DNA of 64,000 bases, taken from Thermodesulfobacterium thermophilum DSM 1276. GTDB lineage: Bacteria; Desulfobacterota; Thermodesulfobacteria; Thermodesulfobacteriales; Thermodesulfobacteriaceae. The stretch lies in contig NZ_ATXI01000006.1 in the NCBI RefSeq assembly GCF_000421605.1, positions 1 through 64,000 on the forward strand. The letters are read 5' to 3'. Under the pieces are notes generated by a model. That model saw only the letters and a list, made by a program, of their open reading frames with translations, did no database searches and was not told the DNA's origin. Positions 31,617 through 36,895 of the stretch are shown here, piece after piece (positions within the stretch are counted from its first letter, which is position 1; every line of letters starts with the position of its first letter). Both the position numbers and the translations under genes were made by a program.

Positions 31617-33101
<1,485 letters not shown>

Positions 33102-33121: not shown

Positions 33122-34318
33122 CTAATTATACCTCTCTATTAAAGAAAGTAAAGCGCCCTCTAAAATTCCATATACACTTAAGATAAGAAAATCCTTCTTA
33201 AAATATTCTAACACAGACCAGCAAATAAGAGCCCCTGGAAGGGCGATGTCTTCCCTTCCTTTTTCCATCCCTTTTATCTTGGAAATCCTCTCAAGGTCAC
33301 AATTAGCTAATTTTTTAACTATTATTTCTATGCGATCTTTAGAAATTTTATGACCGTTTAACGGATAAGGAGAATAGGTCTTTAGCTTTAAATCCAGAGC
33401 TCCTAAAAGACTCGCAGTCCCTCCGGTAAAAATTACGTAATCTACCTCTTCCTTAGGTAAATCAACCAATTTATCCGAAAGATATTCCATGATAGACTTA
33501 AAAACCTTAGAATTTACCGGATACCTTAGTTGAAAAAGGTCCTTTAACCAAACCGCCCCTATGTCTAAACTTTTAATCCATTTAGGCGTTCCTTTTTCAC
33601 TTAAAACAAACTCAGTAGAACCTCCCCCTATGTCTACCACCAAGAATTTCTTGTCAACCAACCCTTGAGATTGTAATCCATACAGCACCCCTTTTAAAGA
33701 AAGTAAAACCTCTTCCTCTGGAGATATCACCTCTATGTCTATACCTATTTTTTTAGCTTCTGCTAAAAACTCCTGAGCATTCTTAGCTTTTCTAAAAATT
33801 GCCGTACCTACAGCCCTATAATCTTTTACCTCATAGGTTTCCATCAACTCTTTAAAATTTCTCAGGGTCTCAATCCCCTTTTTGAAAGCTTCTTCTGTAA
33901 TTTCCTGGTTAACCAAACCTTCTCCAAGCCTTACGTTTTCTCGGTTTCTTATCAAGAAATATGTCTGATCTTGTATTTTCTTTCCTAAACAAATCCTAAA
34001 GGTTTGAGTTCCCAGGTCTAAAGCCGCAAAAAACGGAAGGTTTAACCTTTCTTTAAACTCTTTTCCCAGTTTAAAAATTACCCTCAGTTTATTTTTAACA
34101 TAATAGCTTTGTTGGTTTTTAGGATTTTTAAAAATAAGTCCCTTATTTTTTTTAAGTTCAAAAACTCCAAAATCCCTAAACTCTATCCGGTTACCCTTTT
34201 TTAGCTCTTCTTTTAAAGTTTCAAAAAAAAGCTCAACTATTACTTTTAAGTCTTCTTTTTCCAATTCTAAATCTGCAAGTTTTAAGTTTAAACTTTCTAT
34301 CAGATCACTTCGGTTCAT
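33122..34318 (-). CDS. Fusion of an IHF/HU-type DNA-binding domain to a Ppx/GppA phosphatase
   Basis: 398 residues from the ATG at 34318 (MNRSDLIESL, after AAGGGTGG); a GTG three codons earlier is also open. Residues 1-93 form a complete HU/IHF domain, with the usual RIEFRDFGVFELKK, the intercalating Asn-Pro (65-66, NPKNQQ) and the ending FKLGKEFKERLN. After a three-residue linker the Ppx/GppA fold begins: AALDLGTQTFRI (about 99-110), GTAIFRKAKN, EEEVLLSLKG and VVDIGGGSTEF (227-237). Ppx/GppA enzymes hydrolyse polyphosphate or pppGpp. The gene follows rpsA-sppA, where a separate ihfB normally sits. Which phosphatase substrate is used, and whether DNA is bound, are open. Confidence 0.88.
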   Translation of the reverse strand: MNRSDLIESLNLKLADLELEKEDLKVIVELFFETLKEELKKGNRIEFRDFGVFELKKNKGLIFKNPKNQQSYYVKNKLRVIFKLGKEFKERLNLPFFAALDLGTQTFRICLGKKIQDQTYFLIRNRENVRLGEGLVNQEITEEAFKKGIETLRNFKELMETYEVKDYRAVGTAIFRKAKNAQEFLAEAKKIGIDIEVISPEEEVLLSLKGVLYGLQSQGLVDKKFLVVDIGGGSTEFVLSEKGTPKWIKSLDIGAVWLKDLFQLRYPVNSKVFKSIMEYLSDKLVDLPKEEVDYVIFTGGTASLLGALDLKLKTYSPYPLNGHKISKDRIEIIVKKLANCDLERISKIKGMEKGREDIALPGALICWSVLEYFKKDFLILSVYGILEGALLSLIERYN

Positions 34319-34329
34319 AGTCTCCACCC

Positions 34330-35193
34330 TTAATAAGGAAAAAACCAGGGTTTAAAATAAAAAGACTCTGCTAATCCAGAGGCTTTCTCCTCTAACAACT
34401 TCCAAAAACTAACCTTTTTCTCAGGAAGATAAATCAGTTTGGCTTCTTTTATTCGGGCAAGCCTTTTTACTTCTTCTACAGCATCCCAAAAACTACCAAG
34501 TTTATCTATCAAACCCAACTTTAAAGCCTCTTCTCCGGTAAAAATCCTTCCGTCAGCTAACTCTCTAACCTTGGCCTCAGAAAGTTTTCGTTCTTTGGCT
34601 ATAGCTTTTATAAACTGCTCGTGAATAACCTTTATTTTTTCCTGGAGATAAACCTTTTCCTTAGGGCTTAATGGCCTGTAAAAAGACCCGGTATCTTTAT
34701 ATTCTCCACTTTTTATCACCTCTGCCTCAACCCCAAGCTTTTTTAACAGTTTTTCCAGGTTAGGCACCTGAAGCACCACCCCAATACTTCCTGTAAGGGT
34801 CCCAGGAAGGGCAAAAGTTTGGTTGCCTCCAAGAGACACATAAAAACCACCAGAAGCTGCGATGTTGCCCATAGAAACTACCACAGGCTTTATGGTCCTA
34901 AGTTTTTTCAGCTCTTCAAAGATCTCTTGAGAAGCTCCTACAGAACCACCTGGGGAGTCTATACGAACCACCACCCCTCTTATACTTTCCTTCTCTTTTA
35001 AAAACCTTATAGCCCTAAGAAGTTCCTCTGGATCTGCAATGACCCCTTTTATTTCTAAAACCCCTATCTGGGGTTTCCCAAAATCTATATCCTTAAGCTT
35101 TATCAAAAAAGAAAGAATAAAACTCAAAACAAACAAAAATACTACCAATCCACCCACAAAAGCCAGTCCATAAACCAACCAAGGACGTTTCAT
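34330..35193 (-). CDS. sppA: Signal peptide peptidase SppA, short form
   Basis: 287 residues with an N-terminal membrane anchor (about 8-30) and one ClpP-like domain. The nucleophile Ser is in GNIAASGGFYVS and the general-base Lys in SGEYKDTGSF. It is the short, single-domain form that assembles as an octamer and degrades cleaved signal peptides. The ATG at 35193 follows AAGGGG; a TTG precedes it by one codon. It lies 10 bases after rpsA, the conserved rpsA-sppA order. Confidence 0.93.
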   Translation of the reverse strand: MKRPWLVYGLAFVGGLVVFLFVLSFILSFLIKLKDIDFGKPQIGVLEIKGVIADPEELLRAIRFLKEKESIRGVVVRIDSPGGSVGASQEIFEELKKLRTIKPVVVSMGNIAASGGFYVSLGGNQTFALPGTLTGSIGVVLQVPNLEKLLKKLGVEAEVIKSGEYKDTGSFYRPLSPKEKVYLQEKIKVIHEQFIKAIAKERKLSEAKVRELADGRIFTGEEALKLGLIDKLGSFWDAVEEVKRLARIKEAKLIYLPEKKVSFWKLLEEKASGLAESFYFKPWFFPY

Positions 35194-35203
35194 CAAAATC
35201 CCC

Positions 35204-36895
35204 TTAAGCTCTCTTTAATTTTTGAGCCAATAAATCCCCTAACCTTACCCCTATTCCTTCTCTTTGAAAGGATTCTTTGTAGGCCTCTAACTCTTGGTTT
35301 TCAAGCTCCTCTAAATACTTCAAACAAGAAAGATGAAGTTTTCTGTTTTCAGGGTCTAACACCACTATTTTACCTTTTAACCGGTCTCCTGGTTTATATT
35401 TTTCAGCTATCTTTTCTGACTTAGGAAGGTGCCTTCCTTTAAATTCTTCAGAAAGTTCTTTAAAAGGAATTAAACCTTCTATCCCCTGGAAAACTTCAAC
35501 AATAACCCCTGTTGAAACCATCCGTTTTATCACCCCTTCTACCACATCTCCTATCTTATGAGAAGCCACAAAGTTTTCCCAAGGGTCTGGGGTTAGATGT
35601 TTAACACTTAAACTAAGCTTTCTTTTTTCAGGATTTATCTCAAGAACCTTGGCCATGACTTCTTGTCCAGGACTAAACTTCTCTTTTAAATTTTCTATCC
35701 TTTCCCAAGAAAGGTTGGACACATGGATAAAACCTTCAACCCCCTCTCTTACCTCAACTAGCAACCCATGATTCAATACCTGTTTTATTTTCCCTTTTAC
35801 TACAGCACCTACCTCTACCTCTTTTACGAACTTTTCCCAAGGACTTGGTTCAAGACGCCTTAAACTAAGCACCATTTTCCTTTCAGAAGGTCTTATTTCA
35901 AGAATTACAGCCTCTACCAAATCCCCTAAACCCAAAAGCTCCTTAGGTTTTAAGTTTTTATTCCATCCTATCTCACTTCTTGGGACCAACCCTTCTACTC
36001 CAGGTTCTATCTCTAAAAAAGCCCCGAAATCAAAAATTCCTACTACCTTCCCCTTAACCTGCTGACCTTCTTGATAACGATTGGCTACCCCTTCCCAAGG
36101 GTCAGTCTCTAAGGCTTTTAAACTAACCTTAAGTCGTTCCTTAGAAGGATCAAAGGAAAGTACCTTAACCTTTATTTTATCTCCTATCTTTAAGAAAGTC
36201 TCTGGGTCTGTTATCCTAAACCAAGAAAGTTCTTTGTCAGGAAGAAAACCCTTTAACACCCCATCAAAATCTATCAAGAAACCTCCTTCCACCCTTTTAA
36301 AAACCTCTCCTTCTAATACACCTTCTTTTATCTTATCTAAAACCTCTTTTTTCTTTAGTTCATATTCTCTTTCAAGCAAAGCCCTTCTTGAAACCACCAG
36401 GTTCTCTTTGTCAAATTTAACCACCAAAGCCTCAAACTCCTTTCCGATAAGAGCCTCAGGAGAATCAAGTCTTTCTCTAAAATAGGCCTGGGAAAAGGGA
36501 AGAAACCCTGGAACAAAGCCCTCAACCTTAACCGTGTATCCTCCTTTTATCAAAGAGACTATTTTTATCTGCACAGGAAGTCCTTTTTCAAAACTATCTT
36601 TTATCTTTTCCTTAACCTTCTTTTCTCTGATTTTTTGATAGGAAAGCAAGTATCCACCTAAGGGAGCTCTTCCTATCACCAAGAATTCTCCTTCCTCTCC
36701 TTCACTAAACTGAAATCCCCCTTTTTCGTCTTTTATCTCATCAACAGGCAAAAGGGCCTCCCCTTTTAACCCCACATCCACAAAGACATACTCTTTGCCT
36801 ATCTTCACCACCCTTCCTTTAACTACCTCTCCAACAGCAATCTCTTGAAACGACTTACTTAAATACTCTTCGAACTCCTTTCCCCAATCTGTCAT
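35204..36895 (-). CDS. rpsA: 30S ribosomal protein S1
   Basis: 563 residues made of six S1 OB-fold repeats (recurring VGAVVKGKI...GFIHVSNLSW-like units; DPWE-type spacers separate the later repeats). It helps messenger RNA onto the 30S subunit. A GAGG lies just upstream of the ATG. Together with sppA and the HU-Ppx gene it forms the head of the long minus-strand run; the 65-base gap to the next gene up probably holds its promoter, though no strong boxes stand out. Confidence 0.95.
   Translation of the reverse strand: MTDWGKEFEEYLSKSFQEIAVGEVVKGRVVKIGKEYVFVDVGLKGEALLPVDEIKDEKGGFQFSEGEEGEFLVIGRAPLGGYLLSYQKIREKKVKEKIKDSFEKGLPVQIKIVSLIKGGYTVKVEGFVPGFLPFSQAYFRERLDSPEALIGKEFEALVVKFDKENLVVSRRALLEREYELKKKEVLDKIKEGVLEGEVFKRVEGGFLIDFDGVLKGFLPDKELSWFRITDPETFLKIGDKIKVKVLSFDPSKERLKVSLKALETDPWEGVANRYQEGQQVKGKVVGIFDFGAFLEIEPGVEGLVPRSEIGWNKNLKPKELLGLGDLVEAVILEIRPSERKMVLSLRRLEPSPWEKFVKEVEVGAVVKGKIKQVLNHGLLVEVREGVEGFIHVSNLSWERIENLKEKFSPGQEVMAKVLEINPEKRKLSLSVKHLTPDPWENFVASHKIGDVVEGVIKRMVSTGVIVEVFQGIEGLIPFKELSEEFKGRHLPKSEKIAEKYKPGDRLKGKIVVLDPENRKLHLSCLKYLEELENQELEAYKESFQREGIGVRLGDLLAQKLKRA

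Follow-up and report, generated by a model that had tools for sequence, protein, structure and literature searches.

Does the reading frame discussed here, which begins as a nucleoid DNA-binding protein and ends as a phosphohydrolase, represent a true protein and, if so, how did its two parts come together and what might they do in one chain? The frame is single and unbroken and lies on the minus strand (34318-33122) of the window, a stretch of 64,000 nucleotides from Thermodesulfobacterium thermophilum DSM 1276, whose genome comprises 1.79 Mb in 46 contigs. Its product of 398 amino acids begins with an IHF/HU domain (residues 1-93), which a joint of three residues connects to a Ppx/GppA domain (residues 97-398). 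An earlier note on this DNA had proposed precisely such an architecture, with Asn65-Pro66 in the first domain and a short joint, and both the frame and the Pfam matches confirm it: Bac_DNA_binding (PF00216) covers residues 1-93 (E 7.8e-19) over profile positions 1-90 of 90, that is, a complete DNABII domain, and Ppx-GppA (PF02541) covers residues 120-395 (E 1.3e-52). An AlphaFold2 model of the whole fusion, built from an alignment of 29 sequences from the class, has a mean pLDDT of 92.4 and a pTM of 0.84. The features of the locus are collected in Table 1.

Table 1. Features of the fusion gene and its surroundings; positions are those of the window
Feature	Position	Strand	Basis or remark
ihfB-ppx/gppA fusion gene, complete	33122..34318	-	398 aa plus stop
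Shine-Dalgarno-like GGTGGAG ahead of ATG 34318	34322..34328	-	sequence
IHF-beta/HU (DNABII) domain, residues 1-93	34040..34318	-	Pfam PF00216; NCBIfam IhfB; AF2 model
Glu46-x-Arg48, aligned with E44 and R46 of E. coli IHF-beta	34175..34183	-	both invariant in 29/29; alignment to IHF-beta
Asn65-Pro66 codons, arm-tip pair	34121..34126	-	invariant in 29/29
Three-residue joint, residues 94-96, from last HU helix to first Ppx strand	34031..34039	-	AF2 secondary structure (helix 86-93, strand 97-102)
Ppx/GppA domain, two-domain (Aquifex-type), residues 97-398	33125..34030	-	PF02541; TIGR03706; structural matches
Asp101 of DLGTQTFR loop (Mg site; D7 of DrPPX)	34016..34018	-	invariant; role from PMC11234463
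Glu203, catalytic Glu (E114 of DrPPX)	33710..33712	-	invariant; role from PMC11234463
Asp229-x-Gly-Gly-Gly-Ser-Thr-Glu236 phosphate loop (D136/E143 of DrPPX)	33611..33634	-	D229, G231, G232, S234 and E236 invariant; PMC11234463
sppA, immediately upstream, 11 bp from fusion	34330..35193	-	adjoins fusion in 27/27 annotated class loci
rpsA, upstream of sppA	35204..36895	-	locus annotation
guaB (IMP dehydrogenase), 35 bp downstream of fusion	31617..33086	-	locus annotation

The gene stands in a tight same-strand row in which rpsA and sppA come before the fusion and guaB, a gspF-type and a corA-type gene come after it, neighbours being about 10 to 35 bases apart. The most likely translation start is the ATG at 34318, which is preceded by GGTGGAG; the GTG at 34327, chosen in the list of open reading frames, falls inside this Shine-Dalgarno-like sequence. 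In this species, residues 84-111 of the fusion include no in-frame ATG, GTG or TTG, so that the Ppx part is left without an obvious start of its own. A separate internal start for this part was likewise rejected, since at the joint no start codon is conserved.

The earlier note had named two findings that would speak against the fusion: a frameshift or assembly join near the joint, and relatives with two separate genes that would leave this strain as a lone exception. A search of the class Thermodesulfobacteria yielded matches in 39 of 41 genomes, and the fusion was full length in 36 of the 41, distributed among three families and nine of ten genera. A scan of genome contigs with the protein from the window, which picks up close relatives only and has no bearing on other phyla, matched Thermodesulfobacterium hveragerdense DSM 12571 alone, whose copy is 96 per cent identical. 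Among the incomplete copies, that of G014 ends at a contig edge, that of G023 has a broken frame in a draft assembly and that of G037 is partial. Genomes G017 and G008, with completeness of 93 and 64 per cent, produced no match to the fusion and none to sppA either; because this gene, the neighbour of the fusion elsewhere, is missing there too, we did not accept a true absence, and the locus is probably unassembled in both. That an assembly or sequencing artefact joined two genes has a vanishingly small probability: the only points in its favour are the rarity of the architecture and the broken frame in the G023 draft, but the same joint occurs in 36 genomes, including the single-contig G006, G009, G010, G015, G024, G030 and G036, and the relatives, at 40-96 per cent identity, are under purifying selection. 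Since many independent genomes have full-length relatives without any indel across the joint, a frameshift or assembly join at this point is excluded, and the full-length fusions found across the class rule out a lone exception in one strain.

Two draft genomes contained paired fusion copies. Those of G002 (C16 and C12) clearly differ, being 58 and 51 per cent identical to the protein from the window, and those of G007 (C82 and C86) are identical; in both cases a mixed or redundant assembly is the likely source.

We sampled architectures over this phylum, in 395 genomes, 17 of them from the class and 378 from other classes. All 17 contained the fusion, and the joined form was not found in the other 378, where the best matches listed begin at model position 76 or later and therefore comprise only the Ppx part. 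It is unlikely that a joined form was missed among the unlisted weaker matches, because it would score higher and rank at the top. Matches to the fusion in plasmid records carry annotations of ordinary Ppx/GppA, and the longest one spans residues 49-392 with 27 per cent identity. In another lineage of the phylum, a Ppx/GppA domain (G315:C55:27887-28795) lies inside an open frame of 1435 amino acids, perhaps a different fusion.

What kind of DNABII protein forms the first part? Its position, tree, family model and fold identify it as IHF-beta. IhfB is the best NCBIfam DNABII model for the fused domain, with 59.6 bits versus 43.5 for IhfA, a score that falls far short of the IhfB equivalog cut-off of 115 bits; the fused domains of two other families of the class reach 79.5 and 82.5 bits with the same model. 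In a tree of HU domains (only 91 columns), the fused domains group with sppA-linked IhfB and away from the paralogous HU and IhfA proteins of the class, with support of 84/79 for the split containing the fused and sppA-linked proteins and of 89/57 for the fused group. Predicted alone, the domain has a pLDDT of 90, and in a structure search its top match was the IHF-beta chain of the IHF-DNA complexes 2ht0/1ihf (Z 11.1, 2.8 Å over 93 residues), with HU chains within one Z unit of it. On sequence grounds, then, the fused part is an IhfB orthologue by descent, and not a canonical IhfB because its score is under the curated cut-off.

Nine residues of this part (E46, R48, F63, N65, P66, R79, F82, G85 and R91) are invariant in the 29 sequences from the class. 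In IHF the arm-tip proline intercalates into DNA, and E44 and R46 of E. coli IHF-beta, the equivalents of E46 and R48, read the IHF site. According to its title, PDB entry 1ouz combines an E44A substitution with a variant site. Compared with E. coli IHF-beta (IhfB, PDB 1ihf/2ht0 chain B), the fusion shares the full domain with its arm-tip Asn-Pro and both site-reading equivalents, the gene position after rpsA, the fold and the place in the tree with sppA-linked IhfB. Unlike it, the fusion continues at its C-terminus into a Ppx/GppA domain, has FxNP instead of GRNP at the arm tip and scores below the NCBIfam IhfB cut-off.

A profile search for DNABII genes revealed three in this genome, namely the fusion, one gene for HU and one of the IhfA type, which in a close relative is a stand-alone gene located behind pheT. 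The earlier note had suggested checking whether a stand-alone ihfB still exists, and none was found in the genome with this search. These results bear on the idea that the HU part might be purely a dimerisation or docking module that does not bend DNA and that takes the place of the dimerisation domains present at the C-terminus of long Ppx/GppA proteins. DNABII domains are dimeric, the HU part has diverged from IhfB and the class is devoid of the extended C-terminal half seen in Ppx of the E. coli type, all of which would suit such a module; yet N65-P66, E46 and R48, needless for a pure dimeriser, are invariant, the fusion holds the only IHF-beta found and IhfA is retained. We consider this idea very improbable. 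There is good ground to suppose that the IHF part dimerises, probably with IhfA, and binds DNA.

The stand-alone IhfA presents a peculiarity of its own. In this genus and in a neighbouring one (L002, L171, L173, L175 and L177) its arm tip reads GRNLK, with leucine in place of proline, and the IhfA of other families of the class (L161, L164 and L168) keeps the proline; DNA bending may be uneven when one arm of IHF is altered. Several genomes of the class contain four or five DNABII genes, some of them strongly diverged at the arm tip (L002/L171; HU paralogues L162, L169 and L178).

The earlier note had also claimed a complete Ppx/GppA fold for the second part. Complete it is, with the refinements that it belongs to the two-domain Aquifex-type form, not to the four-domain form of E. 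coli, and that the gene is on the minus strand. The best NCBIfam model is TIGR03706 (exo_poly_only; 4.2e-62, 210 bits against a cut-off of 307), and the cut-off of the GppA equivalog PRK11031, a model built for the four-domain form, is not reached (99 versus 624 bits). A structure search with the Ppx part retrieved solved Ppx/GppA enzymes at Z 30-41, among them 3cer (40.9), 3mdq (38.3), 6pc3 (36.2) and 1t6d (34.8). Residues D101, R176, E203, D229 and E236 are invariant and correspond to D7, R86, E114, D136 and E143 of DrPPX, for which roles in binding Mg, polyphosphate or the water used in catalysis have been shown (PMC11234463). Together with the invariant residues of the IHF part, this indicates that the fusion is kept across the class with the key residues of both domains, and hence both active sites, retained, a conservation that the earlier note had regarded as favourable to its proposal.

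Like the Aquifex aeolicus Ppx/GppA (PDB 1t6c, 1t6d and 2j4r), to which it is 29-30 per cent identical, the fused enzyme is a two-domain hydrolase that keeps the catalytic Glu, the Asp and the phosphate loop; unlike it, it sits behind an IHF-beta domain, has DLGTQT/S in place of DxGSNS and has LEG in place of the REG motif. With the four-domain PPX and GppA of E. coli (PDB 1u6z and 6pbz) it shares domains I-II and the active site, and it differs from them in having an N-terminal IHF-beta domain and neither the C-terminal HD-like domain nor the fourth domain. The DLGTQT/S loop is found in the class where relatives have DxGSNS or DxGTNT, and a separate Ppx from an outgroup, L078, also has the Gln; this Gln for the usual Asn in the phosphate loop (DLGTQTFR) could alter activity. 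We rejected LEG as a hallmark of the fusion because it is also carried by separate Ppx proteins of the phylum, being common to most of those inspected.

Besides the fusion, no complete Ppx/GppA is present in the genome or, judging from the list of matches, in the class, barring the duplicate fusion copies in G002 and G007. A second, partial match in this genome, in the stretch L005:502-3462 (on G000 contig 11, of about 5.8 kb), is to a TPR protein of 639 amino acids. It probably has a signal peptide, and besides its TPR repeats it contains half a Ppx domain that is degenerate and has a DIGSGN loop. Its gene is followed by an ORF with a weak match to an AAA/helicase N-terminal domain, and no full relative of the protein was seen in the rest of the class.

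Which substrate would such an enzyme cleave? None of the 41 genomes of the class contained ppk1, with the same search being positive in 7 of 14 control genomes, and none contained a ppk2 above the cut-off, there being four weak matches below it. A Rel-type synthetase is present in one copy in 39 of the 41. Because ppk1 and an above-threshold ppk2 are missing and Rel is nearly universal, the genomic context favours pppGpp or another nucleotide over polyphosphate as the substrate. The absence of ppk is no proof of this, because in Mycobacterium tuberculosis pppGpp is not hydrolysed by the short two-domain Ppx/GppA proteins, one of which is a short-chain polyphosphatase (PMC3411833). Likewise, the reported efficiency of H. 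pylori Ppx/GppA is about 27-fold lower with pppGpp than with polyphosphate (PMC7552824).

The fusion might accordingly be imagined as an exopolyphosphatase tethered to the nucleoid that degrades polyphosphate near DNA. TIGR03706 is the best family model of its C-terminal part and, as just seen, two-domain relatives can have this activity; nevertheless, the TIGR03706 score is under the cut-off and the class has no known polyphosphate synthase, neither ppk1 nor an above-threshold ppk2, so we hold this to be unlikely. The earlier note had suggested that the fusion could tie alarmone or polyphosphate levels to DNA binding. Of these two halves, that of polyphosphate is weakened by the ppk searches, and that of the alarmone is strengthened by the single Rel in 39 of 41 genomes and by the fusion being the only complete Ppx/GppA. 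Our results also raise a puzzle, namely the role of a Ppx/GppA enzyme in a class without a known polyphosphate kinase.

Gene order is informative about the origin of the fusion. The 27 profile-annotated loci of the class show a constant order of sppA, fusion and guaB, with rpsA upstream except in L046, where no rpsA match was obtained. In the outgroups L121 and L122 we found rpsA-sppA-ihfB-ppx as separate genes, the stop codon of ihfB being 20 bases from the ATG of ppx in L121 and the gap being longer in L122. Two more outgroups, L119 and L120, have rpsA-sppA-ihfB, an extra reading, and then ppx-guaB; the roughly 650 bases between ihfB and ppx contain no long forward frame in these two and resemble an opposite-strand gene. 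Further outgroups show rpsA-sppA-ihfB without ppx, and sppA-ppx occurs in L123, L124 and L157. The neighbours in L119, L120, L121 and L122 thus share with the fusion the operon and orthologous genes for sppA-linked IhfB and Ppx, but there a stop codon and a separate start divide ihfB from ppx.

The tree built from Ppx domains fits a single origin of the fusion, with the group L071-L075 as the nearest; the fused group has support of 73/73, and the placement of one long outgroup row is unsure. The simplest reading would be one merger of operon neighbours in the ancestor of the class, because outgroups keep rpsA-sppA-ihfB-ppx separate, in one case with a gap of only 20 bp. The pre-fusion arrangement persists in living relatives, and the loci of the class and the unfused outgroups bear out the earlier proposal that the fusion occupies the ihfB position and arose inside the rpsA-sppA-ihfB operon. 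In all, gene order and sequence comparisons indicate that the fusion is the ihfB of the class merged with its downstream neighbour, a two-domain ppx/gppA, and that it is old and class-wide.

Both parts have evolved at like rates. Among the 29 species, pairwise identity averages 50.1 per cent in the HU part and 49.4 per cent in the Ppx part, and dN/dS values in three close pairs are 0.08-0.12 and 0.09-0.27, respectively; because both parts are under purifying selection, both are in use. No indels were found between residues 19 and 114 in the 29 sequences. A joint of fixed length suggests that the relative position of the parts is constrained, rather than the joint being a free tether.

These data are pertinent to the alternative that a stop codon was lost between operon neighbours and that the chain simply carries two independent functions, each part doing its old job with no useful coupling or location. 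Read-through would be a simple route, given outgroup genes that are adjacent but separate with gaps down to 20 bp, both parts keep their residues while changing at similar rates, and a reversal would be hard once the stop was lost without an internal start. Nevertheless, the length of the joint is constant over residues 19-114 in 29 sequences with a mean identity of about 50 per cent, and in no inspected lineage have the parts become separated again. We regard such independence as possible, though on the doubtful side.

Our best model, to which we give an even chance, is an IHF heterodimer whose beta subunit brings a GppA-like hydrolase to the nucleoid. In this model, the IHF-beta part would pair with the separate, pheT-linked IhfA and bend DNA as IHF does, and each heterodimer would carry one hydrolase domain on its outside. 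The hydrolase would remove the 5' gamma phosphate of the pppGpp made by the single Rel or, alternatively, act on another nucleotide or on short polyphosphate; action on pppGpp is a step for which there is less ground than for the dimerisation and DNA binding of the IHF part. IHF would then set the site and the amount of the hydrolase, resulting in alarmone turnover on the chromosome, or else binding of DNA or alarmone at one part would alter the other part. The fixed joint fits a constrained arrangement and is no proof of coupling. The benefit might lie in location, in amount or in mutual regulation, or the fusion might be kept merely because it is hard to undo. More tentatively, and with less confidence than in the heterodimer itself, we propose that IHF heterodimers could carry pppGpp turnover on the chromosome throughout the class, with DNA binding and hydrolysis regulating each other.

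Both halves of the protein belong to known families, and the earlier note knew of no described protein with this architecture. Indeed, we found no published description of the fusion in the literature searched, with most subscription journals lying outside it, and as far as this literature goes both the architecture and its class-wide fixation are undescribed. As a rule, IHF forms one global system and the metabolism of alarmones or polyphosphate another, and a class-wide fusion hints at a direct link between them, because it contains the sole IHF-beta that was found together with the sole complete Ppx/GppA. The fusion offers a defined protein in which to test a link between IHF and alarmones and, if the proposal is true, the stringent response and chromosome architecture would be united in one molecule across a bacterial class.
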